From positions 1 through 34,198 of the forward strand of contig JAHCKS010000058.1 in the NCBI GenBank assembly GCA_026125665.1: DNA of 34,198 bases, written 5' to 3'. The translations under genes and the position numbers were made by a program. The notes below the pieces were generated by a model, which was not told the origin of the DNA, ran no database searches, and worked only from the letters and a program-made list of their open reading frames with translations. Of the stretch, positions 14,852 to 31,250 are shown in pieces (within the stretch, counting starts at the first letter, position 1; each line of letters starts with the position of its first letter). The DNA comes from Rubrivivax sp. GTDB taxonomy: Bacteria; Pseudomonadota; Gammaproteobacteria; Burkholderiales; Burkholderiaceae_C.

Positions 14852-15435
14852 GTCGCTTTTCGTTGCTGCGCGCCTGCGCCGCCCTGGCCCTCGTCGTCCT
14901 CATCGACGCCGGGGTCGGGCTCGAACGCGTCGTCGCCGGCTCGCGCGCGGCGCCTGAGCACGAACACCAGCACGAGCAGGCCGCCGGCGAACAGCAGGCC
15001 CGGGCCCAGCCACAGCAGCGCCGTGCTCTCCTTCATCGGTGGGCGGTAGAGCACGAAGTCGCCGTAGCGCGCCGTCATGTAGTCGAGCACCTCGCGTTCG
15101 CTCCTGCCCTGGCGCAGCATGTCGCGCACCTGGTTGCGCAGGTCCTGCGCCAGGCCGGCGTTGGAATCGGCGATGGTCTGGTTCTGGCAGACCAGGCAGC
15201 GCAGCTCGGCGGCGAGCTTGAGCACGCGCGCCTCGAGCTCGGGGTCGGCCGCGGCGGGCTGCGCCGGAGCAGCCAAAGCCGGCGCCACCGCAACCGCAGC
15301 GAGCGAGAGCAGCCAGGCAGCCACCGCGGATCCGGCTCTGCCGGGCCGCCGGCGGCGCCCCCTCGGCCACGAAGTGGCCCTCGCCGGGCCACGGGGGAGC
15401 GCCGCAGGCGCTTCGGGGGGGGCGAAGTCACCCAT
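14848..15435 (-). CDS. ccmH: Cytochrome c maturation protein CcmH, with an unusual N-terminal extension
   Basis: 195 residues from this ATG. CcmH is a periplasm-facing thiol-disulfide protein that reduces apocytochrome CXXCH cysteines. The defining LRCLVCQNQTIADSNAGL carries Cys80 and Cys83. AREVLDYM-type and YGDFVLYRPP segments and a C-terminal membrane helix (about 139-160) follow, then an acidic tail. The signal-peptide core (AAWLLSLAAVAVAPALA) begins only near residue 39, behind an Arg/Pro-rich lead encoded by a palindromic sequence (15354-15411). The ATG overlaps the last eight bases of ccmG, which fits coupled translation. A GTG at the codon of Val38 is an alternative start that would remove the lead, but it has no clear ribosome site. 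The gene overlaps ccmI by four bases. Confidence 0.92.
   Translation of the reverse strand: MGDFAPPEAPAALPRGPARATSWPRGRRRRPGRAGSAVAAWLLSLAAVAVAPALAAPAQPAAADPELEARVLKLAAELRCLVCQNQTIADSNAGLAQDLRNQVRDMLRQGRSEREVLDYMTARYGDFVLYRPPMKESTALLWLGPGLLFAGGLLVLVFVLRRRARAGDDAFEPDPGVDEDDEGQGGAGAQQRKAT
15354..15411. repeat. Nested palindromic element inside the 5' end of ccmH
   Basis: The outer arms GGCGCCCCC (15354-15362) and GGGGGAGCGCC (15393-15403) pair with one bulged A. They enclose GGCCAC-GAA-GTGGCC (15365-15379). GCGCC-GCA-GGCGC (15399-15411) forms an overlapping alternative hairpin, followed by a run of G. It looks like an intergenic repeat element that has become coding sequence at the start of ccmH. 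Confidence 0.6.
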
Positions 15436-16027
15436 CGATCGCCTTCAACAGCGGCTCGATCTTCTCGCGCATCACCGCGGGCGTCACCGGCCCGACGTGC
15501 TTGAAGCGCACGATGCCCTGGCGGTCGATGACGAAGGTCTCCGGCACACCGTACACGCCCCAGTCGATGGCCACCTTGCCGTCACCGTCGAACAGCGACA
15601 TCGCATAGGGGTCGCCCAGCTGGCGCAGCCACGGCTGCGCCTGCGCGCGCTGGTCCTTGTAGTTCAGGCCCACCACCGGCACCCGGCTGCGGCGCGCGAA
15701 GTCCACCCACAGCGGATGCTCCTCGCGGCACGGGCCGCACCAGCTGGCCCACACGTTCAGCACCCAGGTGCGGCCGCGGAAGGCCTCCTGCGTGACGATC
15801 CGGCCGGGGTCGTCCAGCCGCGGCAACGCGAAGGCGGGCGCCGGCTTGCCGACGAAGGGCGAGGGCACCTCGCGCGGGTTGAGCGACAGGCCGCGCCCAA
15901 GCAGCACTGCCAGCACGCCGAATGCCAGCAGCGGCACCAGGAACAGCGCCAGCCGCCAGCGGCGTGCCGGCGTCGCCGCTGTCGTCGACTGCTGCCCCGG
16001 TGGTGCAGCTGGCGCCACGCCACTCAT
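15428..16027 (-). CDS. ccmG: Cytochrome c maturation thioredoxin CcmG (DsbE)
   Basis: 199 residues. CcmG is a membrane-tethered periplasmic thioredoxin that keeps apocytochrome and CcmH thiols reduced. It has a short cytoplasmic N-terminus, one transmembrane helix (25-44), the motif KPAPAFALPRLDD and the active site WASWCGPCREEHP, with Cys97 and Cys100. Further on are the thioredoxin-fold VVGLNYKDQ and the cis-proline segment YGVPETFVIDRQG, where the GVPET motif is typical of DsbE. The ATG overlaps the ccmF stop codon in the four bases ATGA. The longer frame upstream inside ccmF is excluded. Confidence 0.96.
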   Translation of the reverse strand: MSGVAPAAPPGQQSTTAATPARRWRLALFLVPLLAFGVLAVLLGRGLSLNPREVPSPFVGKPAPAFALPRLDDPGRIVTQEAFRGRTWVLNVWASWCGPCREEHPLWVDFARRSRVPVVGLNYKDQRAQAQPWLRQLGDPYAMSLFDGDGKVAIDWGVYGVPETFVIDRQGIVRFKHVGPVTPAVMREKIEPLLKAIDG

Positions 16028-18132
16028 GCCCGCTGCGCCGGCGCTTGCAGCGGCCCGGCGTCGCGCGCCTGCTCGGCCGCGAGGCGCTGGCGGTAGCGCC
16101 GGTCGCCGGCGGCCAGCAGGCCGCCGAGCGCCATCAACGCGCAGCCACCCCAGATCCAGTCGACAAAAGGCTTGATGTAGATGCGCACGATCCACGCGCG
16201 GCCGTCGTCCACGGGCTCGCCGAGGGAGACATACAGGTCCTGCGTCAGCCGGGTCGAGATCGCCGCCTCGGTCATCGGGTTGTCCTGCACGCGGTAGACG
16301 CGTTTCTCGGGCAGCAGGTCGATCACCTTCTTCTTGGCCGCGCCCTCGCCCCGGGTCACTTCCACCCAGCCCTGCACGGCGCGGTAGTTCGGGCCGTCGC
16401 GCTCGCGCAGCCCCTGCAGCGTGAAGGTGAGGTCATCGATCGTCACGAAGTCGCCAGGGGCCATCTTCACGTCGCGCTCGACCTCGAAGGTCTTGACCAT
16501 CGTCACGCCGAAGATGAAGACGGCGATGCCCAGGTGCGCCACCCACATCGCGGCCACCGACCGCGGCACGAGCGGCGCGCGTTCGGCGAAGGCGCGCGGC
16601 ACCGCCTTCAGGCGCGCCGCCAGCGACACCGGGCCGAGGTGACGCGGGCGCAGCCGCTCCCAGGCGTCGGCGGCAAGCGAAGCCACGACCCACCAGGCCA
16701 TCAGGAGGCCGAGCGTGGCCAGCCACGAGATGCCGCCCGCGCCGCGCACGTGGTACAGGGCCTGCAGCCCCGTGGCGACGACCGCCACCAGCAACGCCCA
16801 GCGCAGGCGGCGCGCCAGGTCGGGCAGCTCGGCGTGCTTCCAGCGCGCGAGCGGCCCCACGCCCATCAGGAAGACCAGGGGCGCCATCAGCGGCACGAAC
16901 ACGGTCTCGAAGTACGGCGGGCCGACCGAGATCTTGCCCATGCCCAGCGCATCGAGGGCCAGCGGGTACAGCGTGCCCAGCAGCACGGCGCCGCAGGCGG
17001 CGACGAGCATGACGTTGTTGGCCAGCAGCGTCGTCTCGCGGCTGGCCCAGTGGAAGCGTGCGCCGAGCCCCACCGTCGGCGCACGCCAGGCGTACAGCGT
17101 CAGCGAGGCACCGACGACGACGACGAGGAAGCCGAGGATGAACAGGCCGCGCGCCGGGTCGGTGGCGAAGGCGTGCACCGACGACAGCACGCCCGAGCGC
17201 ACGAGGAACGTGCCGAGCAGCGACAGCGAGAACGCGATGATGGCCAGCAGCACGGTCCACGACTTGAACGCGCCGCGTTTTTCGGTCACTGCCAGCGAGT
17301 GGATGAGCGCGGTGCCGACGAGCCACGGCATGAACGAGGCGTTCTCCACCGGGTCCCAGAACCACCAGCCGCCCCAGCCGAGCTCGTAGTAGGCCCACCA
17401 GCTGCCGAGCGCGATGCCCACCGTCAGGCAGGCCCACGCGGCCACCGTCCACGGCCGCGTCCACCTCGCCCAGGTGGCATCCAGCCGCCCGCCGATGAGG
17501 CCGGCCACGGCCAGCGCGAAGGCGACCGAGAAGCCGACGTAGCCCATGTACAGCATCGGCGGATGGATGACCATGCCCGGGTCCTGCAGCAGCGGGTTCA
17601 GGTCGCGGCCGTTGGCCGGCACCGGGAACAGGCGCTCGAACGGGTTCGACGTGGTCAGCGTGAACAGCAGGAAGCCCACCGCCACCGCGCCCATCACGCC
17701 GAGGATGCGCGCCACCACCTCCGCCGGCAGCGCACGGCTGAAACGCGCCGCCGCTGCCATCCAGCCGGCCTGCATCAGCAGCCACAGCAGCAGCGAGCCC
17801 TCGTGACCGCCCCACACGCCGGCCACGCGATAGGCGAGCGGCAGCTCGAGGTTGCTGTGCATCGCCACGTACAGCACCGAGAAGTCGTTGCGCACGAAGG
17901 CGGCCGTCAGACAGGCGTAGGAGACAACGACGGCGGCGCCGAAGAGGTAGGTGAGCGGGCGAGCGGCGGCCACCCACTGCGTGCGCGAACGTGCGAGCAG
18001 GCCCGGCGCGCCGGCCGCCGCCGTCGGCGAGATGAGCGAGCCGGTGATCGGCAGCACCGCCAGCAGCAGCGACAGGCCGAGCGCCACCCAGAGGAAGAAG
18101 TGGCCGAGTTCGGGGAGGAGTGAGCCGAGCAT
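16024..18132 (-). CDS. ccmF: Haem lyase subunit CcmF
   Basis: 702 residues, a large polytopic inner-membrane protein that attaches haem to apocytochrome c from holo-CcmE, together with CcmH and CcmI. It carries the tryptophan-rich periplasmic WWD motif (GWGGWWFWDPVENASFMPWL) with conserved histidines in GVWGGHEGSLLLWLL and VIHPPMLYMGY. A large C-terminal periplasmic domain (about 560-660, with MAPGDFVTIDDLTFTLQGL) follows, then a final membrane helix. The start MLGSLLPELGHFFLW is typical. It lies 40 bases downstream of ccmE and overlaps ccmG by four bases. Confidence 0.97.
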   Translation of the reverse strand: MLGSLLPELGHFFLWVALGLSLLLAVLPITGSLISPTAAAGAPGLLARSRTQWVAAARPLTYLFGAAVVVSYACLTAAFVRNDFSVLYVAMHSNLELPLAYRVAGVWGGHEGSLLLWLLMQAGWMAAAARFSRALPAEVVARILGVMGAVAVGFLLFTLTTSNPFERLFPVPANGRDLNPLLQDPGMVIHPPMLYMGYVGFSVAFALAVAGLIGGRLDATWARWTRPWTVAAWACLTVGIALGSWWAYYELGWGGWWFWDPVENASFMPWLVGTALIHSLAVTEKRGAFKSWTVLLAIIAFSLSLLGTFLVRSGVLSSVHAFATDPARGLFILGFLVVVVGASLTLYAWRAPTVGLGARFHWASRETTLLANNVMLVAACGAVLLGTLYPLALDALGMGKISVGPPYFETVFVPLMAPLVFLMGVGPLARWKHAELPDLARRLRWALLVAVVATGLQALYHVRGAGGISWLATLGLLMAWWVVASLAADAWERLRPRHLGPVSLAARLKAVPRAFAERAPLVPRSVAAMWVAHLGIAVFIFGVTMVKTFEVERDVKMAPGDFVTIDDLTFTLQGLRERDGPNYRAVQGWVEVTRGEGAAKKKVIDLLPEKRVYRVQDNPMTEAAISTRLTQDLYVSLGEPVDDGRAWIVRIYIKPFVDWIWGGCALMALGGLLAAGDRRYRQRLAAEQARDAGPLQAPAQRA

Positions 18133-18172
18133 GGGCAGGGGCCGTGGCTTGTGGGTGGATGTGGCGGCCCGA

Positions 18173-18661
18173 TCAGGGCTTCGGGGCCGCGCCGCCAGCG
18201 CCTTCGCCGGTGACGAGCGTGCGCGCCGCGCGCTCCGGGTGGCCGGCCTTCTTCAGCGCCTCGGCCGCCTCGGGCGGCATGTAGTTCTCGTCGTGCTTGG
18301 CGAGCACTTCGCGCGCGACGAAGACACCGCCTTCCAGCTTGCCCTGCGCGACGACGCCCTTGCCCTCCTTGAAGAGGTCGGGCAGCACGCCCTCGTAGCG
18401 CACCGGCACCGTCTTGGCCGAGTCGGTGACGACGAAGCTGACGCGCACGCCGTCGCGCTTCACGCTGCCCGGCTCGACGAGGCCGCCGATGCGGAACGTG
18501 CGGCCGGCCGGCGCCTCGTGCGCCGCCACCTGCGTGGGCGAGTAGAAGAAGACGAGGTTGCTGCGGAAGGCGTTGAAGACGAGCGCGGCGATGGCCCCGG
18601 CCGCCAGCAGCAGCAGCCCGGCCACGATGAGCCTGCGTTGGCGCGGTTTCAGGGTCGACAT
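18173..18661 (-). CDS. ccmE: Periplasmic haem chaperone CcmE
   Basis: 162 residues. CcmE binds haem covalently through a histidine after loading by CcmC and hands it to CcmF. It has an N-terminal anchor helix (about 10-29, [20 protein letters not shown]) and the OB-fold sequence [16 protein letters not shown], then VRVSFVVTD and [19 protein letters not shown]. The haem-binding motif HDENY has His123 and Tyr127. The start [11 protein letters not shown] is preferred because it gives the normal short lead before the anchor helix. It lies four bases downstream of ccmD. Confidence 0.97.
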
Positions 18662-18665
18662 GGCT

Positions 18666-18890
18666 TCAGGACTCCTCTTGGCGGGCACCGGGCGCGGGCC
18701 CGGGCGCCGGACCTTCGAGCGTAGCGTCATCGGCCGAAGCCTCGGCAGCTTCGGCCAGCGCGCGGCGGTGCCGGCGCGCGACGAGCCAGGGCTCGGCCAG
18801 CAGCGCGGCCAGCGCTGCCCCGTACGAGCCCCAGACGAAGAGCCCGTGGCCGCCCATCGCGAAGAACTCGCTCGCGCTGCCCCAGTTCAT
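18666..18890 (-). CDS. ccmD: Cytochrome c maturation protein CcmD
   Basis: 74 residues, a small one-helix membrane protein that helps release holo-CcmE from the CcmABC complex. It shows the usual aromatic-rich opening ([20 protein letters not shown]), one transmembrane helix ([18 protein letters not shown]) and a basic cytoplasmic start ([10 protein letters not shown]). A Pro/Gly/Ala tail follows. Its ATG overlaps the ccmC stop codon in ATGA, and its position between ccmC and ccmE confirms the identity. Confidence 0.93.
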
Positions 18891-19714
18891 GCCGCGCGCT
18901 CCTGCGGGGCTTGCGGTCCCTGCGGGCCTTGCGGGCCGGCCGGCGGCAGCCCGCCGGCGCCGCCGGCGGCGGCCAGCTCCTGCACCCACTGCGTGTGCCG
19001 CTCGCGCGCCAGCACCATCGCGCGCGCCCGCATGAACACCACCGCGAAGGCGTACGCCCAGCAGGCCAGCGTCGTCAGCAGCAGCGCGGTGAGCATCGTC
19101 TGCGCCATCTTCGGCGCCGCCGTCATGCTGATCGTGGCGCCCTGGTGCAGCGTGTTCCACCACTTCACCGAGAAGTAGATGACCGGGATGTTGATGCTGC
19201 CGACCAGCGCCAGCAGCGCGCCGGCCTGGTCGGCGCGGCGCGGTTCGTCGATGGCGTTGACGAGCGCGAGGTAGCCGAGATAGAGGAAGAAGAGCAGGAG
19301 CTCGGAAGTGAGCCGCGCGTCCCACACCCACCACGTGCCCCAGGTCGGCTGGCCCCACAACGCACCGGTGACGAGCGCGAGCGCCGTGAACATCGCCCCG
19401 GTAGGCGCGATGGCCCGCGCCAGCACCGAGGCCATGCGGGCGTTGAAGGCCCAGCCGATGGCGGCCCAGAAGGCCATCGCCAGGTACAGGATCATCGACA
19501 GCCAGGCCGCCGGCACGTGGATGAAGAGGATGCGATAGCTCTCGCCCTGCGTCGCATCGGTCGGCGCGACGAAGAAGCCGACGTACAGGCCCGCGATGCC
19601 GCACGCGATGGCCGCCGCCCACAGCCACGGCAGCGCGGCGCCGGCCAGCCGATAGAAGCGCATCGGGGCGGCGAAGGTGTAGAGGCGCAGGCGGTCTGCG
19701 GCGCGGGAGGTCAT
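18887..19714 (-). CDS. ccmC: Haem exporter/handling protein CcmC
   Basis: 275 residues with six predicted helices. CcmC presents haem to CcmE at the outer face of the inner membrane. It has the WWD-type motif (WGTWWVWDARLTSELLLFFL), with a conserved His in ILFIHVPAAWLSM and another in KWWNTLHQGATI. The C-terminus has an unusual Gly/Pro/Gln-rich tail (about 245-275) that is probably disordered. The start MTSRAADRLRLYTFAAP has GGGAGG just upstream. A 271-base gap separates it from ccmB and may contain its own promoter. Confidence 0.96.
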   Translation of the reverse strand: MTSRAADRLRLYTFAAPMRFYRLAGAALPWLWAAAIACGIAGLYVGFFVAPTDATQGESYRILFIHVPAAWLSMILYLAMAFWAAIGWAFNARMASVLARAIAPTGAMFTALALVTGALWGQPTWGTWWVWDARLTSELLLFFLYLGYLALVNAIDEPRRADQAGALLALVGSINIPVIYFSVKWWNTLHQGATISMTAAPKMAQTMLTALLLTTLACWAYAFAVVFMRARAMVLARERHTQWVQELAAAGGAGGLPPAGPQGPQGPQAPQERAA

Positions 19715-19985
19715 GGCGACGAGTGACGACGGCGCGCCGGCTCCGACGGGCCGGGCGGCTCGGGGCCGGGCAGGGCGGCGAGGGCCTGCGCGTGCGACCG
19801 GCCGCGCGCCAAGGCAAGAGCATGCGCGGGCTGCGCATGTTAGGCCATCGTGCACCGCCCGGCGGCGGCTGAATGGGCCCGGGTTGAATCAGGTCAAGGT
19901 GAGAGTGCTTGCCAGGCGTTGCTGCGCGTGAGCGGGCGTCATCGTGGGCCTGCCCGTGGCCGGCCGATGGCGGGCGGCCGGCCCC
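19715..19985. other. Gap between ccmB and ccmC with a possible internal promoter
   Basis: No supported coding sequence lies here, although every other junction in the operon is 40 bases or less or an overlap. It holds the FNR-like palindrome at 19884-19897. On the minus strand TAACAT (plus-strand 19837-19842) is a possible -10 box. The palindrome would then be centred about 61 bases before the predicted start of transcription, a position used by FNR-class activators. Together they suggest that ccmC-I can be transcribed separately from ccmAB. Confidence 0.4.
19884..19897. promoter_or_regulatory. FNR/Anr-like binding site upstream of ccmC
   Basis: TTGA-N6-TCAA is present in full (TTGA 19884-19887, TCAA 19894-19897), matching the core of the FNR-family consensus TTGAT-N4-ATCAA. 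The outer half-site bases differ from the best consensus. It lies about 170 bases upstream of the ccmC start. FNR control of ccm genes is known in Escherichia coli; here it is inferred from one site. Confidence 0.45.
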
Positions 19986-20654
19986 TCAGGCCGTGGCGAT
20001 GCGCAAGGCCGCCGCCGTGGCCGGCGGCGCACCGGCGAGCGTGCCGATGAGCAGCGCCGCCAGCAGCGACAGGTGGCCGTCCACGGCCAGCCCGGCCTCC
20101 AGCGCCGACACCGCACCGGCGCCGAAGATGAGCGCCGGCACCGCCAGCGGCAGCACGATCAGCAGGTTCAGCAGCGCGCCGCTGCGCAGGCCGAGCGTCA
20201 GCGCCGCGGCCAGCCCGCCCAGCAGGCTCAGGATCGGCGTGCCCAGCACGAGCGTGGCCACGAGCAGGCCGATGGCCGGCCCCGGCAGGCCGAACATCAA
20301 CGCGATCAGCGGGCTCACGGCCACCAGCGGCAGGCCGTGCGTGAGCCAGTGCGCCGCCGCCTTGGCCAGCGCCAGCACCCAGGCCGGCTCCGGGGCCAGC
20401 AGCAACTGGTCGAGCGAGCCGTCGGCGTGGTCCGAGCCGTACATCGGCGCCAGCGACAGCATCGCGGCGAGAAGGGCACCGACCCACAGCACGCCGGGCG
20501 CGATGTGGCGCAGCGTCTGCGGCTCCGGCCCCACGCCGAGCGGGAACAGGCTCGCCGCGACGACGAAGAAGACCACCGGCAGCAGCGCCTCCACCGGGCG
20601 GCGGGCGGCCAGGCGCAGCTCGCGCCTGACCAGCGTGGCGAAGAAGCCGTTCAT
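19986..20654 (-). CDS. ccmB: Haem exporter membrane protein CcmB
   Basis: 222 residues with about six hydrophobic helices. CcmB is the membrane partner of the CcmA ATPase; CcmA2BC releases holo-CcmE using ATP. Typical features: a short cytoplasmic start with basic residues (FFATLVRRELRLAARRP), VVFFVVAASLFPLGVGPEP, and FADGSLDQLLL-like sequence (SDHADGSLDQLLLAPEP) after the first pair of helices. LVLGTPILSLLGGLAAALTL and LPLAVPALIFGAGAV follow. The ATG overlaps the ccmA stop codon in ATGA, which fixes the start. Confidence 0.96.
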   Translation of the reverse strand: MNGFFATLVRRELRLAARRPVEALLPVVFFVVAASLFPLGVGPEPQTLRHIAPGVLWVGALLAAMLSLAPMYGSDHADGSLDQLLLAPEPAWVLALAKAAAHWLTHGLPLVAVSPLIALMFGLPGPAIGLLVATLVLGTPILSLLGGLAAALTLGLRSGALLNLLIVLPLAVPALIFGAGAVSALEAGLAVDGHLSLLAALLIGTLAGAPPATAAALRIATA

Positions 20655-21394
20655 CCCCGCTCCGTCGACCCCGACGCCGGCTCGCCGGCGCGCCGCCCGA
20701 AGGAGCGTGCGGGCGGCTCGGGCAGCGTCACGATGCGCGGCGGCGGCTGCAGCGGCGCGATCTGCTGGTGGCTCGTGAACAGCACCGCGCCGCCGTCGGC
20801 CGCCACGCCGGCGAGCAGGCGCGCGAGGCGCGCAATGCCGTCGTCGTCCAGCGCGTCGAAGGGCTCGTCCAGCAGCGCCAGCAGCGGCAGCGGCGCCAGC
20901 GCCGCCCGTGCCACCGCCAGCCGCGCCAGCGCGACGCGGCGGCGCTGGCCCTGGCTCATCGTGCGCACGACGCGCCGGGCGAGCGCGCCGACGCCCAGGT
21001 CGTCGAGCGCCGCCTGCACCTGCGCGGCGGTGCAGGCGTGCCCGGCCAGGCGCGCGGCGAACTGCAGCGACTCGGCCGCCGTGAGGTCGTCCTTCAGCGC
21101 GTTGGCGTGGCCGAGATACACGAGCTGGCGGCGCCAGCCGGCGTCGAGCCCGCGCACGGCCTGGCCGCCCAGACGCAGCTTGCCCGCCGCGGCGCTGCCG
21201 AGACCGGCCAGCGTGCGCATCAGCGTCGTCTTGCCGCGGCCGTTGGCGCCACGCAGCCACACCACCTCGCCCGGCGCGAGGGTGAGGTCGAAACCGTCGA
21301 AGAGCGCGCGCTCGCCGCGCTCGCAGCGCAGGCCGATCGCCTGCAGCGAAGGCAGGCCGGGTGCGGCGGGCGAGGTCGAAGCGGGGGCGGGCAC
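20651..21394 (-). CDS. ccmA: ABC-transporter ATP-binding protein CcmA
   Basis: 247 residues from a GTG start. Cytoplasmic ATPase of the CcmAB complex that drives release of haem-loaded CcmE. It has Walker A GANGRGKTT (49-57), the ABC signature MSQGQRRR (146-153), Walker B LLALLDEP (171-178) and the H-loop His209 in FTSHQ. The GTG (21392-21394) lacks a clear ribosome site, so the exact start is uncertain, although no other good start precedes the first conserved strand. It is the first gene of the operon and is divergent from the caspase gene at 21690. Confidence 0.95.
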   Translation of the reverse strand: MPAPASTSPAAPGLPSLQAIGLRCERGERALFDGFDLTLAPGEVVWLRGANGRGKTTLMRTLAGLGSAAAGKLRLGGQAVRGLDAGWRRQLVYLGHANALKDDLTAAESLQFAARLAGHACTAAQVQAALDDLGVGALARRVVRTMSQGQRRRVALARLAVARAALAPLPLLALLDEPFDALDDDGIARLARLLAGVAADGGAVLFTSHQQIAPLQPPPRIVTLPEPPARSFGRRAGEPASGSTERG

Positions 21395-21689
21395 GTCGGG
21401 AACGGGTGGGCCGGCGCCGGGCTTCCCGGCGCGCGCTCGCCTGCCGGACCGGCCTCAGGCGCTCGCGGCACCGTGCGGGCCGAGGCGCGCACGGTACACC
21501 ACCGGCGCAGGGCGCACCCCCGGGCCGCGGGGGCTCGCACGCGCTGCCACGCCAGTCGTCGTGGTGCGGTGACGGTCTCGCGCAGGCTGCCGGCATGCGA
21601 GGCACGGGCAGGCCCGGCACCCCCCTTCGGAGCGTCCCATGACCAGCGGTTGTTCCGCGTGACGGCACCGCACTAGGATGCCGCGGTCC
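21395..21689. other. Divergent control region between ccmA and the caspase gene
   Basis: No gene is supported in these 295 bases. Two inverted repeats stand near the ccmA side: ACCGTGCG with CGCACGGT (21470-21477 and 21488-21495), and CCCCCG with CGGGGG (21517-21522 and 21528-21533). The promoters for ccmA and the caspase gene must lie here, but I see no convincing -35/-10 pair in this GC-rich sequence. Confidence 0.4.
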
Positions 21690-24600
21690 ATGAAGCACCT
21701 CGCCCGCACATCGTTCGCCGGCCCGCTCTGCACGCGGCGCGCAGCCCTGCTCGGGCCGGGCGCGGCCGGCATCGGCTTGGCGAGCCTGGGCGTTCCCGAC
21801 TGGGTGCTGGCGCAGGTCGCCGCGACGGCCACGGGCACGGCCGAAGGCGCGCTGCGCCCGGTGCTGACCGTCGAGAGCGGCAGCCACGGCGCGCCCGTGC
21901 GGCGCATCGACGTGGCGGCATCGCGCGGCCTCGTCGTCACGGCCTCCGACGACCGCACGGCGCGCGTGTGGGACCTGGCCAGCGGCGCGTTGCGCCTCGT
22001 GCTCAGGCCTTTCGCGTTCGGCTCGGAGGGCGGGCGGCTGTACGGCGTGGCCGTGCACCCGCGCGAACCGCTGGTCGCGGTGGCCGGCACGACGGGCGGT
22101 GCGATGCCGGGCGGCGGCACGCACCCGCACCTCGTCTATCTGTTCGACCTCGAGTCCGGCGCGTTGCGCTCGACCATCGATGCGCGTGCCGGCGACATCC
22201 GCAAGCTCGCCTGGTCTGCCGATGGCCAGGTGCTGTTCGCCGGCTACAACGGCACACACGGCGTGCGCGCCTTCGCGCGCGACGGCCGCGAGCTCGTCGA
22301 CGACCGCCTGCCCGGGCCGGTCTTCGGGCTGGCCACGCACGCGGGCGGCGCGGCGGCGGCTGTCGGGCTGGACGGCACGCTGCGGCTCTACAGGCCCGCC
22401 GGCAACGGCATCGAGCGCGCCGCCGCGGCGGCGCTCGGTGCGCGCCGTGCCGCCGGCGTGGCCTTCAGCCCGGACGGGCGGCAGCTCGCCGTGGCCTACG
22501 CCACGCGCGGCGAGGGCGCCGAGCTCTTCGATGCGGTGACGCTGCAGTCGATCGCCCGGCTGCCCGTGCCCGAGTCGCATGCCGGCGACTGGCGCGTGCT
22601 CGCATGGAGTGCCGACGGCCGCACGCTGGCGCTGGGCGGCACGGCTCACACGCGCGACCTGCGTTTCCCGGTCGCGATGATCGACGTCGCCGCGCGCCGC
22701 GAGGCGGCACGCGCGGAAGTGTCGGTGGACAGCGTCACCGACCTCTTGGCGCTGCCCGCCGGCGGGTTCACCTACACGAGCTTCGACGGCTCCTGGGGCA
22801 CCGTGGGCGCGCCGGGCCAGGCCGAGCCGCGGCGCGTCGGCGCGCCCGTGGCGGCCGTGCGCGGCAACGCGCCGTTCGACCTGGAGCTTGCCGCCGACGC
22901 GCTGGCACTGCGCTGGGGCCAGCGTGGCCCGGGCCGAGGTCTTGCATTCGCCTTCGACCGACGCCGGCTGGCGCGCGGCCGCGCGCTGGAGGGGGTCGAT
23001 CTGCGCGAGCCCGCCACAAGCGCCGGCGGCCTCGCCGTCACCACCGACTGGCTGCGCGACGGCCGCGCCCCCGTGGTCGGTGGGCGCACCGTGGCAATGG
23101 AGGCCGACGAACGCCCGCGTGCCGTCGTCGTGCTGCGTGGCCAGCCGGCGGCGGCGGTGTTCGGCACGAACCGCGCGCTGCACCGCGTCGACGAGCGGGG
23201 TGCGCTCGCCTGGCGGGTGCCGGTCGACACCGAAGTGCGTGCGCTCAACGCCAGCGCCGACGGCCGGCTGCTCGTGGCGGCGATGGCCGACAGCACGCTG
23301 CGCTGGCACCGCACGGCCGACGGCCAGCAGCTGCTCTCGCTGCTGGCGCTGGAGGACGGGCGCTGGGTGGCCTGGACACCGAGCGGCTACTTCGACGCCA
23401 GCGTCGGCGCCGACCGCATCGTCGGCTGGGCGCTGGCGCGCGGCACCGGGCAGGCGATGGACTTCTTCTCGCTGGCGCGTTTTCGCGAGCAGTACAACCG
23501 GCCGGATGTCGTCGAGCGTGTGCTCGCCACGGCCGACGAGAAGACCGCGCTGGCGCAGATCGCCGCGCGCATCGAAGCCGAACGCGTGGCGCTGCAGCAG
23601 GAGGCGGCGCGCCAGGCCGAAGCGGCGCGGCGCGCCGAGCGCGAGGCCGCCGAACGCGCCGAGCGGGCACGCCTCGCCGCGCAGGAGGAAGCGCAGCGGC
23701 GCGCCGCCGCGGACAGGGCAGCGCGTGAAGAGGCGGCCGCCGCCGAGGCAGCACGTCAGGCCGAGGCGGCGCGCCAGGCGGCCATTGCGCAGGCGCGCGC
23801 GCAGGCCGAACGCGGGCCGCTGCCGCCGCTGGGGCGCGCGCGCCGAAGCCGAGGCGCGCCCGCGGCCGAGCGCCAGCGCCTCGAGCGGGAAGCGGCGCTC
23901 GTCGCCGAGCGCGAACGGCAGCGCCTGGAGGCCGAGCGCGTGGCCGCGGAGGAGCAGGCGCGCGAGCGCGAGCGGCTGGCGCAGCAGGCCGCCCGCGAGG
24001 CAGAGGAACGCCGGCGCGCCGAGCAGGCCAAGCGGGCGCTCGTGCAGCTGCGCGCTGCCGAGTTTCCCCCGGCCGTGCAGGGCGTCGGCGACCCGCAGCT
24101 GAAGGTCACCGGCAACATCGCGACGCTGCCTTTCGCGCTGCATTCGCACACCATCGCCGGCGAGGTGGAGCTGGCCATCCGCGCCGCCGGGCGGCCGCTA
24201 GAGCCGCGCGAGCTGGTGATGCCGAAGGCGCTGAACGGCCTGACGCAGGGCTTCGCGCGCATCGAGCTGCCGGTGGCCGGCGGCCTGAACCCTTTGGCGG
24301 TGGAGCTCATCGCGAGCAACCGCTACGGCTTCTCCGAGCCACTCGCCTTCCTCATCGAGCGCGAGCTGCCGCCACCGCCCCCCGGCGGCTGGCCGGGTGA
24401 CCTGTACGTGCTGGCCATCGGCGTGGCGGAGTACGCGCGGCCCGAGTACCGCCTCGGCCTGGCGGCCAAGGACGCCAACGACTTCGCCGCGGCGATGAAG
24501 CGCCAGGAGGGCCGCCAGTACCGCCGCGTCATCACGCGCACGCTCACGAACGCGCAGGCGACGAAGACGTCGATCCTGCGCGAGTTCGAGTGGCTGCGCG

Positions 24601-25133
24601 CGAGCGCCACGCCCACCGACACGGCGATGCTCTTCGTCGCCGGCCACGGCGTGAACGACTCGCAGGGCCAGTACTTCTTCATGCCGCACGATGCGCAGCA
24701 CGAGCGCCTGGTCAGCACCGGCGTCTCGCAGGCGGCGATCGTCTCGACGCTGGCGCAGATCCGCGGCCGCACGCTGATGTTCATCGACACCTGCTTCGCC
24801 GGCGCGGCGCTCGGCGCGCTGCACAAGGCGCCGAAGAAGACCGAGCGGCTGATCAACGACCTGGCCGCCAGCGAGAACGGCGTCATCGTCTTCGCCTCGA
24901 GCACCGGGCAGGAGGAGTCGCTCGAGAAGGACTCCTGGGGCAACGGCGCCTTCACGAAGGCGCTGCTCGAGGGCCTGTCGGGCCGCGCCGACTTCATGCG
25001 CGCCGGGCGCATCACCTACGCAGCGCTGAACCTCTTCGTCTCCGAGGAGGTGTCGCGCCTGACCGACGGCCGGCAGCGGCCGGTGTTCATCTCGCCGCGC
25101 GGCGTGCCGGACTTCGCCGTGGCGCGGCTGTAG
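21690..25133 (+). CDS. Tat-type exported beta-propeller, coiled-coil and caspase-like protein
   Basis: 1147 residues. The N-terminus has twin arginines (CTRRAALLG, Arg16-Arg17), a hydrophobic core and a likely cleavage site near VLA-Q (41-42), which suggests Tat export. Residues of about 50-590 are WD40-like propeller repeats (for example VTASDDRTARVWDLASG and LAWSADGRTLALGG). About 617-790 is an Ala/Arg/Glu coiled coil, broken at 708-725. A linker domain (about 800-890) leads to a C-terminal peptidase C14 caspase fold (about 904-1147), with catalytic His986 in FVAGHGVND and Cys1035 in IDTCFAG. The ATG at 21690 has AGGA about 11 bases upstream and is preferred over 21678. Caspase-propeller proteins are known in bacteria, mostly as cytoplasmic proteins. 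Substrate and role are unknown. Confidence 0.88.
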   Translation: MKHLARTSFAGPLCTRRAALLGPGAAGIGLASLGVPDWVLAQVAATATGTAEGALRPVLTVESGSHGAPVRRIDVAASRGLVVTASDDRTARVWDLASGALRLVLRPFAFGSEGGRLYGVAVHPREPLVAVAGTTGGAMPGGGTHPHLVYLFDLESGALRSTIDARAGDIRKLAWSADGQVLFAGYNGTHGVRAFARDGRELVDDRLPGPVFGLATHAGGAAAAVGLDGTLRLYRPAGNGIERAAAAALGARRAAGVAFSPDGRQLAVAYATRGEGAELFDAVTLQSIARLPVPESHAGDWRVLAWSADGRTLALGGTAHTRDLRFPVAMIDVAARREAARAEVSVDSVTDLLALPAGGFTYTSFDGSWGTVGAPGQAEPRRVGAPVAAVRGNAPFDLELAADALALRWGQRGPGRGLAFAFDRRRLARGRALEGVDLREPATSAGGLAVTTDWLRDGRAPVVGGRTVAMEADERPRAVVVLRGQPAAAVFGTNRALHRVDERGALAWRVPVDTEVRALNASADGRLLVAAMADSTLRWHRTADGQQLLSLLALEDGRWVAWTPSGYFDASVGADRIVGWALARGTGQAMDFFSLARFREQYNRPDVVERVLATADEKTALAQIAARIEAERVALQQEAARQAEAARRAEREAAERAERARLAAQEEAQRRAAADRAAREEAAAAEAARQAEAARQAAIAQARAQAERGPLPPLGRARRSRGAPAAERQRLEREAALVAERERQRLEAERVAAEEQARERERLAQQAAREAEERRRAEQAKRALVQLRAAEFPPAVQGVGDPQLKVTGNIATLPFALHSHTIAGEVELAIRAAGRPLEPRELVMPKALNGLTQGFARIELPVAGGLNPLAVELIASNRYGFSEPLAFLIERELPPPPPGGWPGDLYVLAIGVAEYARPEYRLGLAAKDANDFAAAMKRQEGRQYRRVITRTLTNAQATKTSILREFEWLRASATPTDTAMLFVAGHGVNDSQGQYFFMPHDAQHERLVSTGVSQAAIVSTLAQIRGRTLMFIDTCFAGAALGALHKAPKKTERLINDLAASENGVIVFASSTGQEESLEKDSWGNGAFTKALLEGLSGRADFMRAGRITYAALNLFVSEEVSRLTDGRQRPVFISPRGVPDFAVARL

Positions 25134-25284: not shown

Positions 25285-25289
25285 AGGAG
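25285..25289 (+). promoter_or_regulatory. Ribosome binding site fixing a GTG start
   Basis: AGGAG stands eight bases before the GTG at 25298-25300 and sets the start of the multihaem lipoprotein gene. The next residues form a typical lipoprotein signal peptide, which confirms the choice. Confidence 0.8.
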
Positions 25290-25297
25290 AGAGAACC

Positions 25298-28200
25298 GTG
25301 AAGTTGCGCACCCCCGTTCTGGTCCCCTTCGCCCTGGCCGCCCTGCTTGCGCTGGGCAGTTGCGGCGGTGGCGGTGGTGGCGGTGGGGAAGCCGACGACG
25401 GTGCAGCCGAGCAGCTTGGCGTGTTCACCGGCTTTCCGGACACCGGCAACCTGAACTGGGAGAGCACCGGCGGCGACGGCTCCGGCGGCGTCGGCGACGG
25501 CGGCGCCAGTGGTGACGGCGGCGTGGGTGCCGGCGGCGACTTCGGCCAGTTCCGCGGTGCGCGCATCTGCGTCTTCCTGGACAACGGCACGGAGCTCGGC
25601 TGCGCCCTTACCGACGACGTGAAGGGCATGGTCACGATCAAGCCGGGCCGCAGCTACCGAGGCGGCCTGCGCATCGAGCTCTCCGGCACGCCGACGGCCA
25701 CCTACTACGAGGAAGGGCGCAACGTCTTCGTGCCCTTCCCGGCCGACCGCAAGATCCGCGTCTGGGTGCCCTTCATCCAGCGCAACATCGGCATCACGCC
25801 CTTCACCGAGGCCGCGTACCGCATGCTCACCGAGGGCAGCGCCCCCGAGAGCGCCGGCCCCAACCCGACGAAGGACCAGGTCCGAGCCGCCAACGAGCGC
25901 GTGCGCGCGGCGTTGAACGAGCACTTCCCGTCCGCCCTGCACGTGGACGACATCGCCCGGCTGCCCTTCATCAAGTCGCCGAGCCTGCCCGCGGGCTCGA
26001 TGGGGACCGACCCGCGCGGCCGTTACGGCCTGGTCAACGGCGCGTTCTCCAAGCAGGCGTCGTTCCACAACAGCGACACCGCCACACCGACGCTGGACGC
26101 GGTGCGGCAGCTCGCCGAGGACCTGCTCGACGGCCGCATCGACGGGCGCAATGGCGACTCTCCGGCCGGGCCGGCCTCCGCGCGCACCTACGACCCGAAC
26201 ACGTTCACCAGCGAACTCAGCTCGGCGCTGGCCGAGCAGGCCGCGCGCTTCGGCGCGCAGGAGGCGCTCGACGCGCTGCCGCGCGTGCTGAACTTCGGCA
26301 ACGTGCGCTACGAGGGTTATCTCTTCGACGGCTCGATCAGCAAGGCCGGCAACGCCTTCAGCACCGTGGCCGGCTGGGTGGCCGGCAACTCGCGCGGCCT
26401 GAGCCTCGGGCAGCAGTTCGACCGCCTGCCCGGCCAGCGCGCGCTGGCGCTGTACGCCAACAACGGCCACGGCGGAGGCTTCTACAAGGCCGACGCGCTC
26501 GGGCCGCGGCACAAGGTCTATGCCATCGGCGACAACGTCAACGGCGAGCTGGGCCTCGGCACGCGCGACTCGACGCAGGGCCGCGCCGTCGAAGTGGATC
26601 TTCCCGGCGCGCTGACGCATGCGGTGGGCGGCTTCGCCCACACCATCATTCGCGTCGCCGACGGCCGCGTCTTCGCGTGGGGCGACAACACCTTCGGCCA
26701 ACTCGGCCAGGGCCAGGGCGCCGACACGCTGCCCAGCTCGCTGGCGCCGCTGCAGGTGCAGCTGCCGCGCCCGGCGCTGGCCGTGGCCGCGACGAACATC
26801 GCCGGCTACGCGCTGCTCGACGACGGCACCGTCTGGGCCTGGGGCAGCAACGGAGGCTTCGGCCTGCTCGGCAATGGCGCGCGTGACGGCATGGTCGCCA
26901 CGCCGACGGCCGTTTCCGGGCTGACGCAGGTGGTGCAGATGAGCGCACGCGACAACGACGTCGTCGTCGTGCGGCGCGACAACACCGTGTGGCACTGGGG
27001 CAGCTTCCCGGCCGACGAGGGCGCCTTCGACGCGGGCGACCCGAGCGCGCCGTACCGCGGCGGCACGATGTCGCCGGTGCAGGTGGCCGGGCTGCCGGCC
27101 GGCGTGCCGGTGCGCAAGGTGCTCACCGAGCAGGGGCTGTTCGTCGCGCTGCTCGCCAACGGGCATGCCTACCACTGGGGGGTGCATTTCGACCTCACGG
27201 CTGGCGGCATCCTGCGCGACCTGACGGCGCAGCGCATTCTCGGCCTGCCTCCCGTGCGTGACCTCATGCCTGGGGGCTTCATCGGCTACGGCGCGCGGCC
27301 GTTCGACCGGCTCACCGGCATGGCCGTCGACTACAGCGGCGGCATGTGGAAGGTGCGCGGGCGCGTCGCCGAGCGCTTCGACCCCGCAGATCCGTCGAAG
27401 CAGAACCGGCCGCAGGGTGCTGCCGCCCGCCCGGACTGCATCTCCTGCCACACCTTCCTCGACGAGTCGCTCGAGCAGTTGCGCGCGCGGCAGCCCTCGA
27501 CCGCGGGGCTGCCGGTGTGCCAGCCGCCGGACACGGTGCACGCACCGGGAGGCGTGAACCTGCTGCACGCCGAAACCGACTGCGTCTTCTGCCACAACCC
27601 CTCGCGCGCGAACTACCCGCAGCTTGCCCAGCCGTTTGCGGGCAGCGGCTCGTGGCAGAACTGCGCCAAGCCCGACGGGCTGCCGCCACGCGCGCAGAGC
27701 ACGCCTGCGCCGCAGACCAATTCCTGCACCGTGCCGGTGGGGCATGTCTACACGCCGCCGGGCACGGTGTGCGCAAGCTGCCACAACAGCATCATCGCGC
27801 GGCCGTTGAACGCGCTCGACACGCCCTGCGCCCAGCCGCGCAGCGACGAGCTGCCGGCCATCGCCAACCTGACCACGATCACCGGCGTGTTCGACCTCGC
27901 CGGCAACGCCATCGCCGCCGGCAGCACGACGAACGTGGTGCGCCACCAGGTGCGCGGCACGCTGTCGCAGCAGCTCGCCGCCGGCCAGACGCTGGAGGTG
28001 TCGCGCAACGGCGCGGTCCTCGGCAGCGCCGCGGTGGGCGGCACGACGTGGACCTACACGCACCCCGCCGACGCGCCGCAGGGCGGCGCCACCTTCACGG
28101 CGCGCGTCGTCGCCAGCGGCGCCTTCGGGCGCACGAGCAACACCTTCTCGTTCAACGTCGACTCGACGCCCCCCACTGGCAGCGCCGCGATCACCGGCTT

Positions 28201-30658
28201 CACCGACGACACGCTCGGGCCGCTGGCCACCGGCGCCTTCGCCAGCGACACCACGCCCACCGTGAACGGCACGCTCAGCGCCGCGCTCGGCAGCGGCGAG
28301 TCGGTGCAGGTGCTGCGCGGCGGGAGCCCTGTGGGCCTGGCCACCGTCAACGGCGGCACCTGGAGCTTCACCGAGCCGGCCGCGCTGGCCGCCGGCACCT
28401 ACAGCTGGCAGGCGCGCACGATCGACGGCACGGGCAACGCGACCGCGGCGAGCGCCGCGGCGACGCTGACGATCGTCACCTCGATGGTGGCGACCAACCT
28501 GACGCAGGTCGTCAACGACGCCACCAGCGTCGTGGTCCCACCCGGCGGCGCGACCAACGACTCGACGCCGCTGGTGCGCGGCACCGTCGGCTCGGCGCTG
28601 CCGCCGGGGCATGTCGTGCGCGTGCTGCGCAACGGCGTGGCGATCGGCACCGCGGCCGTCGTCGGCACCGACTGGACCTTCACCGACCCGGGCGGGCCCG
28701 ACGGCACTCGCACCTACGTCGCGCGCACCGAGGCCGGCGCCGTGCTCGGCACGCCTTCGGGCAGCTACACGATCAGCGTCGACACCGTGCCGCCGGCGCA
28801 GACGGCGAACGTCACGCAGATCGCCGACGACTTCATCGGCCCGCTCGCCGACGGCGCGACCACCGCGGACACGACGCCGATCGTCTCGGGCACCTTGAGC
28901 GCGCCGCTGGCCGAAGGCGAGCAGGTGCGCGTGCTGCGCCGGCTGGGCGCCGGCGCCTTCGTGCAGGTGGCCCTGGTCACCACCGCCAGCCAGAGCTGGA
29001 GCTACACCGAGCCGACGCCGCTGGCCAACGGCACCTACACCTATCAAGTGCAGGTCGTCGATGCCGCCGGCCAGCTCGGCCCGCTCGGCGCGGCGCGCTC
29101 GGTCGTCGTCGACGCGACGGCGGTGCCGCTGCCCGGGGTGGCGGCGACGATCGCCACCATCAACGGCGTCGCGCCCTCGGGCGGCGCGGTGCCGGCCAAC
29201 AACATCACGACGCCGGTCGTCGCGGGCACGATCCAGCGCACGCTGCTCGCCGGCGAGGTGGTGCGCATCTACCGCGGCCTCGGCGCCGGCGCGCCGGCAC
29301 CGGTGGGCACGGCCACCGTCACGTCGACGAGCTGGACCTACACCAACAGCACGCTCGCCGACGGCACGTACACCTTCCGCGCCCGCGTCGAGCGCCTGTC
29401 CGACGGTGCGTTCGGGCTCGTCAGCGCCACCATCACCGTGCCGATCGACGCCACCGCGCCGACGCAGACGGTGACCATCACCAACCTGCGCGAGAACAGC
29501 GGCGGCACGATCGTCGCCAACAACGGCCACACGACCGACACGACACCGTTCCTCGAGGGCACGCTGAGCGCGGCGCTGGGCGCGGGCGAACAGCTGCAGG
29601 TGCTGCGCAACGGCGTGGTCGTCGCGAACCTCACGCCCGGCGGCACGAGCTGGACCTACCAGGAAGGTGCGCTCACGGTCACGGCGCTGTACACGTACAC
29701 GCTGCGCGTGCGCGACGCCGCGGGCAACCTCGGGCCGACCAGCGCCGGCCGAGGGGTGAACATCGTCACCAACCTGCCGACGACGACGATCACGTCGATC
29801 AACGGGCTGGCCAACGGCGCGGCGACCAACGACACGACACCCACCGTCAACATCACGCTGAGCGCCAACCTGCCCTCGGGCTACCTCGTGCGCATCTTCC
29901 GCAACGGCGGCTCGGTCGCGACGCTCGGCACCTGCGCCCCGAGCTGCTCGTTCATCGACGGGCCGCTGCCGGGCACCTCCGGCACGACGTACAACTACAC
30001 CGCCCGCACCGAGGTCGGCGGCACCGCGCTCGGCGCCATCAGCAACACGCGCACGATCGTGCTCGACACGGCGGCGCCGGCCGCGCCGAGCTTCCAGGTG
30101 TTCTCGAACAACCGGCCGTTCCAGAACAACACCACGGGGTGGCCGACGGTGTTCGACGGCAGCGGCCGCAGCACGCAGGAGGTGGCGTTCGGCTCCGGCG
30201 TCGCGACGAGCGACCCCGACCCGCGCGTGCAGATCACGTTCTCGGTGAGCAGCGGCGACACGGTGCAGCTGTTCCGCGGCGGCACGCTGGTGGCAAGCAC
30301 CACGACCGTGGGCCAGACGACGCTGACGGTGAACCACCCGGCGTCGCTGGCGCGCCCGCCGTCGGCGCCGAACACGGTGGCCGACGTCACCTACACCGCG
30401 CGGCGTACCGACGCGGCCGGCAACTTCAGCGATGCCACCTTCGTTGTCAACGTCGTGCATCCGACCTGCAACCGGGACCGCGCGCTCAGCCGGTCGAACA
30501 ACACGACACACCAGAACTGGCTCGCCGGCTCGCCAGCCGCGGCCGGCTGCACGGCCTGCCACGGCACGACTAGCGGCAACTACCTGGCCGCGCCGCCGAC
30601 AAACCCGGAGACGAACAACCTGAACCAGGGCAGCTGGTACTGGTGCTTCAAGAGCTGA
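25298..30658 (+). CDS. Tetrahaem c-type cytochrome lipoprotein with RCC1 propeller and eight Ig-like repeats
   Basis: 1786 residues. The signal peptide ends in a lipobox (LLALGSC, lipidated Cys22). A Gly-rich linker follows, then an unrecognised domain (about 80-400) with ARICVFLDNGTELGCALTDD. An RCC1-type propeller spans about 400-640 (VYAIGDNVNGELGLG, VFAWGDNTFGQLGQG, VWAWGSNGGFGLLGNG). Three CXXCH haem sites, CISCH (714-718), CVFCH (762-766) and CASCH (825-829), lie in a Cys-rich segment. Eight Ig-like repeats of 100-128 residues follow (about 852-1722), with DTTPTVNGTLSAALGSGE and TWSFTEP as recurring motifs. The fourth site, CTACH (1751-1755), is near the C-terminus. The protein is exported, lipid-anchored and probably at the cell surface. 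It lies between the caspase gene and the CcmI-like gene. I know no characterised protein with this combination; an electron-transfer or redox-sensing role is inference. Confidence 0.88.
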   Translation: MKLRTPVLVPFALAALLALGSCGGGGGGGGEADDGAAEQLGVFTGFPDTGNLNWESTGGDGSGGVGDGGASGDGGVGAGGDFGQFRGARICVFLDNGTELGCALTDDVKGMVTIKPGRSYRGGLRIELSGTPTATYYEEGRNVFVPFPADRKIRVWVPFIQRNIGITPFTEAAYRMLTEGSAPESAGPNPTKDQVRAANERVRAALNEHFPSALHVDDIARLPFIKSPSLPAGSMGTDPRGRYGLVNGAFSKQASFHNSDTATPTLDAVRQLAEDLLDGRIDGRNGDSPAGPASARTYDPNTFTSELSSALAEQAARFGAQEALDALPRVLNFGNVRYEGYLFDGSISKAGNAFSTVAGWVAGNSRGLSLGQQFDRLPGQRALALYANNGHGGGFYKADALGPRHKVYAIGDNVNGELGLGTRDSTQGRAVEVDLPGALTHAVGGFAHTIIRVADGRVFAWGDNTFGQLGQGQGADTLPSSLAPLQVQLPRPALAVAATNIAGYALLDDGTVWAWGSNGGFGLLGNGARDGMVATPTAVSGLTQVVQMSARDNDVVVVRRDNTVWHWGSFPADEGAFDAGDPSAPYRGGTMSPVQVAGLPAGVPVRKVLTEQGLFVALLANGHAYHWGVHFDLTAGGILRDLTAQRILGLPPVRDLMPGGFIGYGARPFDRLTGMAVDYSGGMWKVRGRVAERFDPADPSKQNRPQGAAARPDCISCHTFLDESLEQLRARQPSTAGLPVCQPPDTVHAPGGVNLLHAETDCVFCHNPSRANYPQLAQPFAGSGSWQNCAKPDGLPPRAQSTPAPQTNSCTVPVGHVYTPPGTVCASCHNSIIARPLNALDTPCAQPRSDELPAIANLTTITGVFDLAGNAIAAGSTTNVVRHQVRGTLSQQLAAGQTLEVSRNGAVLGSAAVGGTTWTYTHPADAPQGGATFTARVVASGAFGRTSNTFSFNVDSTPPTGSAAITGFTDDTLGPLATGAFASDTTPTVNGTLSAALGSGESVQVLRGGSPVGLATVNGGTWSFTEPAALAAGTYSWQARTIDGTGNATAASAAATLTIVTSMVATNLTQVVNDATSVVVPPGGATNDSTPLVRGTVGSALPPGHVVRVLRNGVAIGTAAVVGTDWTFTDPGGPDGTRTYVARTEAGAVLGTPSGSYTISVDTVPPAQTANVTQIADDFIGPLADGATTADTTPIVSGTLSAPLAEGEQVRVLRRLGAGAFVQVALVTTASQSWSYTEPTPLANGTYTYQVQVVDAAGQLGPLGAARSVVVDATAVPLPGVAATIATINGVAPSGGAVPANNITTPVVAGTIQRTLLAGEVVRIYRGLGAGAPAPVGTATVTSTSWTYTNSTLADGTYTFRARVERLSDGAFGLVSATITVPIDATAPTQTVTITNLRENSGGTIVANNGHTTDTTPFLEGTLSAALGAGEQLQVLRNGVVVANLTPGGTSWTYQEGALTVTALYTYTLRVRDAAGNLGPTSAGRGVNIVTNLPTTTITSINGLANGAATNDTTPTVNITLSANLPSGYLVRIFRNGGSVATLGTCAPSCSFIDGPLPGTSGTTYNYTARTEVGGTALGAISNTRTIVLDTAAPAAPSFQVFSNNRPFQNNTTGWPTVFDGSGRSTQEVAFGSGVATSDPDPRVQITFSVSSGDTVQLFRGGTLVASTTTVGQTTLTVNHPASLARPPSAPNTVADVTYTARRTDAAGNFSDATFVVNVVHPTCNRDRALSRSNNTTHQNWLAGSPAAAGCTACHGTTSGNYLAAPPTNPETNNLNQGSWYWCFKS

Positions 30659-30728: not shown

Positions 30729-31250
30729 ATGCGGCGAACCCCATCGGGCCGCATGAGCCTCGCCAGTCGAGGCGCGGTGCGGCCGGGGCTGCTGGGCGCC
30801 ATGCTCGTCGCCGCCGTCGTGCTCGCGGTGGCAGCGCTCTTCTGGAGCGCCTCGCGCACCACGCCGACCGCGGCGCCGGCCGTCGCACCGCGCGCCGGCG
30901 CGCAGGTCGTCGGCCGGGTGGAACTCGCCGCGGGCGCACCCTCGCCGCCCGCGCGGGCCACGCTCGCCGTCTACGCCTACGCGCTCGACGGCCCGCGCCT
31001 GCCGCTCGCCCTGCTGAAGCTGCCCGCCGCCGGCGCGGCGTTGCCGCTGGACTTCAAGCTCGACGACACGCTGGCGCCGAACCCGGCCTACCGGCTCTCG
31101 CAGGCGGTGCAGGTGGTCGTCGGCGCGCGGCTGAGCATCGGCGGCGGCGACGGCGACGGCGCCCAACCCGGCGACTGGCTCGCCCAGCCGCAGACCGTGG
31201 CGCTGGGCACGCACGGCGTGCGGCTCGTGCTGCAGCCGCCGTCGCGTTGA
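30729..31250 (+). CDS. One-helix membrane protein with a CcmI C-terminal-like periplasmic domain
   Basis: 173 residues. A basic N-terminus leads into one transmembrane helix (about 20-39, LLGAMLVAAVVLAVAALFW). A Pro/Ala linker and a domain at 61-168 follow. That domain matches the C-terminal domain of the CcmI at 13580 (residues 307-420): a VYAYA/IFARA-type strand, then PLA, LP-x2-F-x-LDD, P-x2-RLS, VVV-x-AR-x-S and PGD appear in the same order and similar spacing. The TPR region of CcmI is absent. In CcmI the periplasmic part binds apocytochrome, so a maturation helper for the multihaem protein directly upstream is a reasonable inference. The start may be the ATG at 30729 or 30753; neither has a strong ribosome site. 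Confidence 0.78.
   Translation: MRRTPSGRMSLASRGAVRPGLLGAMLVAAVVLAVAALFWSASRTTPTAAPAVAPRAGAQVVGRVELAAGAPSPPARATLAVYAYALDGPRLPLALLKLPAAGAALPLDFKLDDTLAPNPAYRLSQAVQVVVGARLSIGGGDGDGAQPGDWLAQPQTVALGTHGVRLVLQPPSR

Follow-up and report, generated by a model that had tools for sequence, protein, structure and literature searches.

The stretch of Rubrivivax sp. DNA analysed here (34,198 nucleotides in total; hereafter, the window) encodes a lipoprotein in which an RCC1-type propeller, four c-type haem motifs and a long array of Ig-like domains are combined in one reading frame, next to a gene for a WD40-caspase protein. We tentatively regard this lipoprotein as a c-type cytochrome on a lipid anchor, predicted to carry four haems and representing the haem-bearing branch of an envelope cassette of caspase and lipoprotein, in which it is probably the redox- or ligand-responsive partner. 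The domain order, the haem motifs, the additional Cys and His residues, the linkage to the caspase and the occurrence of haemless versions of the pair are all apparent from sequence. The individual parts belong to known kinds; as far as could be seen, the combination and its pairing with a caspase are new. The relevant features of the window are as follows.

13580..21394, minus strand: ccm (System I) operon (Pfam)
21678..25133, plus strand: partner gene for a WD40, coiled-coil and caspase (Peptidase_C14) protein, 1151 aa (Pfam)
25285..25289, plus strand: ribosome-binding site AGGAG, read in the sequence
25298..30658, plus strand: tetrahaem-motif RCC1/Ig lipoprotein, 1786 aa (Pfam, motif counts, Ig profile count, eight homologous loci)
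25361..25363, plus strand: putative lipid-anchor Cys22 in the lipobox LGSC, with a Gly-rich linker behind it (pattern)
25436..26413, plus strand: N-terminal domain, residues 47-372, a small beta domain and then a helical part (low-confidence fold), common to haemless paralogues
26414..27367, plus strand: RCC1-type propeller, residues 373-690, approximate boundaries (Pfam, Foldseek)
27437..27451, plus strand: haem motif 1, CISCH, residues 714-718 (9/9 homologues)
27581..27595, plus strand: haem motif 2, CVFCH, residues 762-766 (9/9 homologues)
27770..27784, plus strand: haem motif 3, CASCH, residues 825-829 (9/9 homologues)
27842..30427, plus strand: array of eight Big_13-type Ig-like domains (counted with a profile of the window repeats)
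30458..30655, plus strand: C-terminal module C...H...CTACH...C, with haem motif 4 (CTACH, residue 1751) at 30548-30562 (8/9 homologues)
30753..31250, plus strand: small protein in which a stand-alone Ig_CycH domain (PF23892), the C-terminal domain of CcmI, follows an N-terminal hydrophobic stretch (read by eye)

Domain architecture and relatives of the lipoprotein

The initial annotation, made from the letters alone, had placed a lipobox, an RCC1 propeller, four CXXCH motifs and eight Ig-like repeats in a single frame behind a strong ribosome site, and this description holds: the frame comprises 1786 codons from a GTG start at 25298, AGGAG lies eight bases ahead of it, and Pfam, motif searches and the repeat profile recover each of the parts, including an Ig-like domain count of eight. 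In the domain search proposed there as a check, RCC1 (PF00415) scores 65.3 bits against a cut-off of 21.7 (E 7.6e-18) and the Big_13 Ig domains also exceed their cut-off (E 2.4e-26); the RCC1-like propeller model PF25390 matches with an E-value of 4.4e-27, under its cut-off. Structure prediction, likewise proposed, was informative in part. An AlphaFold model of the homologue from locus L001, running from RCC1 to the end of the protein, has a mean pLDDT of 65, with usable propeller and Ig parts but a pLDDT of about 30 in the haem block. A model of window residues 22-870 similarly leaves the haem block unstructured (pLDDT about 30), and the N-terminal domain is also poor. RCC1 and UVR8 lead the Foldseek matches of the L001 model (top match 1a12, E 1.6e-13, TM 0.53 by target length), and this RCC1-like fold, together with the passed Pfam cut-off, places the propeller in the RCC1 superfamily.

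Searches for homologues with the same domain order, another of the suggested checks, yielded eight further loci, so that nine loci in eight genomes of Rubrivivax/Ideonella-like Burkholderiales, the window included, share the plan. Six loci were found by a contig scan, and the locus of genome G098 and the second copy in genome G273 by whole-genome searches; judging by open-frame length, G695, G721, G743 and G744 apparently are the genomes of L001, L002, L005 and L004, respectively. The nine lipoproteins share 49-89% identity pairwise, and identity with the window protein is 49-70%. All nine have, behind a hydrophobic stretch, a lipobox-like motif that ends in C-G-G-G-G (pattern and by eye), although the alignment was cut at this motif and its first column is therefore no test of conservation. 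The number of Ig-like domains varies considerably: with the profile of the window repeats, eight are counted in the window protein and 8, 8, 6, 6, 5, 4, 4 and 1 at the other loci, that is, four to eight in the eight proteins with a terminal haem motif and one in that of locus L042.

The haem lipoprotein type is rare in the samples drawn. It was found in at least one of 399 genomes of the order, in at least three of 299 genomes of the family (counting only matches with E 1e-270 or better), in three of 60 genomes of the window's genus and in four of six genomes of a second genus. The order and family counts, as well as those given below for the N-terminal domain, the caspase and the family Ig_CycH matches, are lower bounds, the best 3 to 12 candidates per genome having been scored. 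A plasmid search returned 15 records matching the lipoprotein, none over 80% of the query, and the ten listed matches begin at about residue 340, that is, with the propeller part.

The second copy in G273 (L042:7052-13595) deviates from the common plan: it has no terminal haem motif, a Calx-beta domain replaces most of the Ig domains and the accompanying caspase is a remnant. Transposase-like genes adjoin this lipoprotein gene (by eye), and L042 is probably a decaying copy.

Haem motifs and haem attachment

The four CXXCH motifs of the window lipoprotein compare with 0.003 expected by chance, and none of 20000 shuffled sequences reaches four; in having two or more motifs, above chance, the protein fits a multihaem c-type cytochrome. 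According to the initial annotation, close homologues without the motif cysteines or histidines would have spoken against haem; instead, all Cys and His residues of the three clustered motifs are invariant in the nine aligned proteins, and the terminal motif is retained in eight of them, as CXXCH in six and as CX4CH in two (L001 and L002), the exception being L042. CX4CH is counted as a haem-binding motif in the accessible text of PMC10734462. Conservation extends beyond the motifs. Four additional cysteines (741, 789, 810 and 844) are present in all nine proteins and two (1724 and 1783) in eight, and with these six, each of motifs 2 to 4 can be read as part of a module C...H...CXXCH...C. His748 and His816 are found in 9/9 proteins and His757 in 8/9; in the terminal module, a His precedes the motif in all eight proteins that have it (residue 1738 in the window), as read by eye, the aligner having scattered its column. 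His757 was considered as an axial ligand of haem 4, and this assignment was rejected, as it depends on L042, which lacks both the His and the motif and whose caspase is a remnant as well.

The N-terminal and RCC1 parts have a mean pairwise identity of 68-70%, the haem block one of 58%, the Ig array one of 48% and the terminal module one of 39%, with a minimum of 22%; the values for the Ig array and the terminal module exclude L042. Thus, identity drops along the protein but the cysteines of the haem modules stay, that is, they are kept against a background of change. Export of the lipoprotein to the compartment of haem attachment is predicted from the lipobox pattern and from reading by eye, and covalent haem is likely, judging from these sequence features.

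The ccm operon that the initial annotation had noticed nearby is real. CcmI, CcmH, CcmF, CcmE, CcmD and CcmC all match Pfam models, and a redoxin and an ABC ATPase occupy the positions expected for ccmG and ccmA; ccmB was not found in the single frame scanned for it. The window, L001 and L003 have the operon beyond the caspase gene. The stretches seen of L006, L041 and L042 do not contain it, and the contigs of L002, L004 and L005 end too early.

The product of the small gene that follows the lipoprotein gene carries the C-terminal Ig_CycH domain of CcmI (PF23892; E 1.9e-15, 56.9 bits against a cut-off of 27) behind the hydrophobic stretch, but, unlike in CcmI/CycH, no TPR domain was found, Ig_CycH being the sole Pfam family at E 0.001. 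CcmI is an apocytochrome chaperone whose binding is discussed, in the accessible text of PMC3884852, via the TPR part. Stand-alone Ig_CycH genes follow the lipoprotein gene in four of the nine loci (window, L001, L002 and L003) and were not found in the remaining five. In the family sample, at least four other Ig_CycH matches (E 1e-17 or better) fall in frames as long as full CcmI (355-499 aa). The genus sample contains several matches in short frames, of which three were inspected: one appears to be cut by a contig end, one by a run of masked bases, and one is a second copy in G721.

The G721 copy (L095:5704-7286, contig C240) lies beside a protein with He_PIG Ig repeats that has no CXXCH in its visible 348 residues, and this argues against a strictly haem-bound role of the domain. 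A role of the small gene as dedicated chaperone of the lipoprotein was accordingly rejected; given its absence from five loci and the second copy in G721, we treat the gene as supporting evidence only.

Could the CXXCH motifs instead bind zinc or another metal, or be engaged in disulfides, with no haem at all? The Pfam multihaem families all remain under their cut-offs, Paired_CXXCH_1 scoring 19.6 against 20.6 bits in the window lipoprotein and Cytochrome_C7 18.2 against 24.8 bits in that of L003, and comparison of the haem block with solved structures gave nothing significant (best PDB profile match 3ov0, E 0.31); the six further conserved cysteines also would suit such a role. However, the adjacent Cys-His pair survives even where the spacing is CX4CH, the protein has a lipobox, a gene for a CcmI-type domain follows in four loci and ccm genes adjoin in three, which makes a haem-free protein highly improbable.

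The WD40-caspase neighbour and the distribution of the cassette

Directly upstream of the lipoprotein gene, on the same strand, lies the gene for the WD40-caspase protein. The Peptidase_C14 domain is recognized with E 2.7e-14 (53.9 bits against a cut-off of 21.4), WD40 propeller models match as well, and a signal sequence and an Ala/Glu-rich coiled coil were read by eye. With the His of AGHG and the Cys of DTC in place, the neighbour is a predicted Peptidase C14 protease with an intact catalytic dyad, and from its N-terminus it looks exported. The catalytic Cys is the sole Cys past the signal sequence in the window, L001 and L003. A sequence search of the caspase domain against solved structures gave no significant match.

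A caspase match is found just upstream of the lipoprotein in all nine haem loci, including the remnant in L042, and the association is wider than the haem proteins. The N-terminal domain of the lipoprotein has at least 16 matches in at least 11 of 299 genomes, and the 14 of them with E 1e-22 or better adjoin a WD40-caspase gene (a remnant in L042); at L088, a 140-aa frame sits between the two genes. For the two weakest matches, the caspase matches of their genomes are on other contigs. Ten of the 14 caspase-adjoining proteins have no CXXCH motif. Conversely, among at least 20 caspase matches (E 2e-70 or better), 13 adjoin such a lipoprotein, and none was found beside the five examined caspases of L080-L084 (L083 being cut at the contig start); two caspases of G291 were outside the examined set. 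These five close relatives indicate that the caspase can occur without the lipoprotein.

Of the 23 caspases examined, 22 have both AGHG and DTC. In a tree of 22 caspase domains, all with the His/Cys dyad, the seven tested caspases that lie beside haem lipoproteins form one clade (support 100/99). The tree is rooted at the midpoint only, omits L081 (where AGHG was not found by motif search), L002, L042 and G291; L004 and L005 are truncated at the contig start. The simplest reading of this topology is that haem is confined to a single branch of the cassette; gain and loss of haem both would fit.

The haemless paralogues keep the RCC1 propeller or bear other C-termini, which would be compatible with a surface protein whose main task is adhesion or matrix binding and which the neighbouring caspase processes, its haems only tuning stability or binding a ligand. 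The structural matches of the Ig array include the adhesin SiiE and the Ig domains of PrgB (Foldseek), and the length of the array, ranging from four to eight units, points in the same direction. Nevertheless, the haem motifs, the extra cysteines and the candidate axial histidines stay while the Ig array diverges, and we consider a primarily adhesive function unlikely.

Several peculiarities of the caspase loci deserve mention. At the two Ideonella-type loci (L006:4790-8178 and L041:10856-14325), the WD40 and caspase parts are in different, overlapping frames, the break falling in the Ala/Glu-rich coiled-coil region that in the window, L001 and L003 belongs to one frame; a true split, a frameshift signal and a repeat-induced error are the candidate causes. 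On the other side of the caspase gene, L041 (14420-17019) encodes an OmpA-family protein and a Ser/Thr kinase with DUF4384; comparable matches occur in L006 and were also read in L089 and L090. The accessible text of PMC3501461 reports 14 predicted metacaspase operons that contain OmpA. Finally, a second, small caspase-like gene lies beside a haemless lipoprotein/WD40-caspase pair (L047:10204-11121; by reading).

Possible function and relation to known systems

For the function of the protein, the initial annotation had suggested surface electron transfer or redox sensing. Redox sensing is the better fit, with the caspase as the likely output; electron transfer is weakened by the haemless pairs and by the gene content of G098. 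In the latter scenario, the haems would link the cell electrically to minerals, other cells or partner cytochromes, with the Ig stalk extending their reach. The window genome does carry an Mtr-type cluster on another contig (L076:8259-14978, G000:C195), comprising an MtrB/PioB porin, a lipoprotein-like protein of 943 aa with 10 CXXCH motifs and a 225-aa protein with four, and MtrB/PioB is also encoded by G273. No MtrB/PioB gene was found at the locus itself, however, among the 24 window proteins scanned, nor does the window contain a second frame (of 100 codons or more) with two or more CXXCH motifs. Moreover, G098, one of three haem-carrying genomes tested, has the lipoprotein but no MtrB/PioB match, and the MtrB/PioB gene of G273 has no CXXCH gene among the genes called in the surrounding 18 kb.

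The protein itself also differs from established conduits. OmcA and MtrC form a family with ten haems and a four-domain fold; the window lipoprotein resembles them in its lipid anchor, its richness in CXXCH and the beta-sandwich domains between haem parts, but has four motifs rather than ten, an RCC1 propeller and a long Ig array, and matches the Mtr domain model PF22113 only with E 0.13, which places it outside that family. Known electron-transfer cytochromes are close-packed haem wires, unlike the haems here, one of which is set apart from the other three by a stalk of four to eight Ig domains. A further comparison is with Desulfovibrio ferrophilus IS5, in which, in the accessible text of PMC8322314, beta-propeller lipoproteins lie near multihaem cytochromes, some detected extracellularly, and an OmpA-family gene is among those listed; there, however, propeller and cytochromes are separate genes instead of a fusion, and no caspase is named. 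Since the cassette exists in versions without haem motifs, its basic job probably is not electron transfer. Extracellular electron transfer fits less well than a caspase partner that responds to redox state or to a haem ligand, and we regard it as a possible but doubtful alternative.

For a haem-bearing partner of the caspase, the following sequence of events may be envisaged. System I would attach haem in the periplasm, and the lipid anchor would hold the protein in the outer membrane, where the N-terminal domain and the propeller might bind the WD40-caspase. Oxidation, reduction or ligand binding at the haems would then alter caspase binding and, in turn, how active the protease is or how the lipoprotein is trimmed. 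As a spacer, the Ig array would set the fourth haem apart from the cluster of three. If extended, an array of four to eight Ig domains greatly exceeds the range of electron tunnelling, so that the stalk would not connect haem 4 electrically to the cluster, and haem 4 would have to either fold back on the cluster or meet another partner.

A more ambitious version, in which the cytochrome on the lipoprotein switches the exported WD40-caspase on or off, so that envelope proteolysis follows when the haems change their redox state or ligand, would imply that the parts of an animal apoptosome have been united independently; we consider this very unlikely. The Apaf-1 apoptosome joins a WD40 propeller, a caspase and cytochrome c, and the cassette contains the same parts, but in different proteins, in a different compartment and with different ancestry, so that the resemblance is one of parts only.

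A literature search that covered few subscription papers returned no publication uniting RCC1, multiheme and cytochrome, and the titles returned for RCC1 with c-type cytochrome and electron transfer concern plant topics. Nor was such a protein or caspase cassette found in the literature searched, again with few subscription papers and, for one search, among the best 20 of 1,900 records. Among bacterial metacaspases and orthocaspases, WD40 is one of the commonest partner domains in the accessible text of PMC3501461 and PMC8283722, as in the window caspase, whose pairing with a haem-motif lipoprotein is different; the main text of PMC3501461 does not contain the words 'cytochrome', 'heme' or 'RCC1'.

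For the function and control of bacterial caspase homologues, the conserved pairing described here offers a concrete partner to study. To such a pair, the lipoprotein of the window adds a predicted haem protein in which a stalk of variable length separates the fourth haem from the other three, and a comparison of pairs with and without haem would reveal what haem adds. One possible point of contact is the basic linker between the propeller and the haem block, which reads QRRP in seven of the nine proteins and QNRP in the window and which, as a guess, might be a cleavage site: according to the accessible text of PMC8283722, metacaspases require Arg or Lys ahead of the cleaved bond, with Arg preferred in the case of a modelled orthocaspase.
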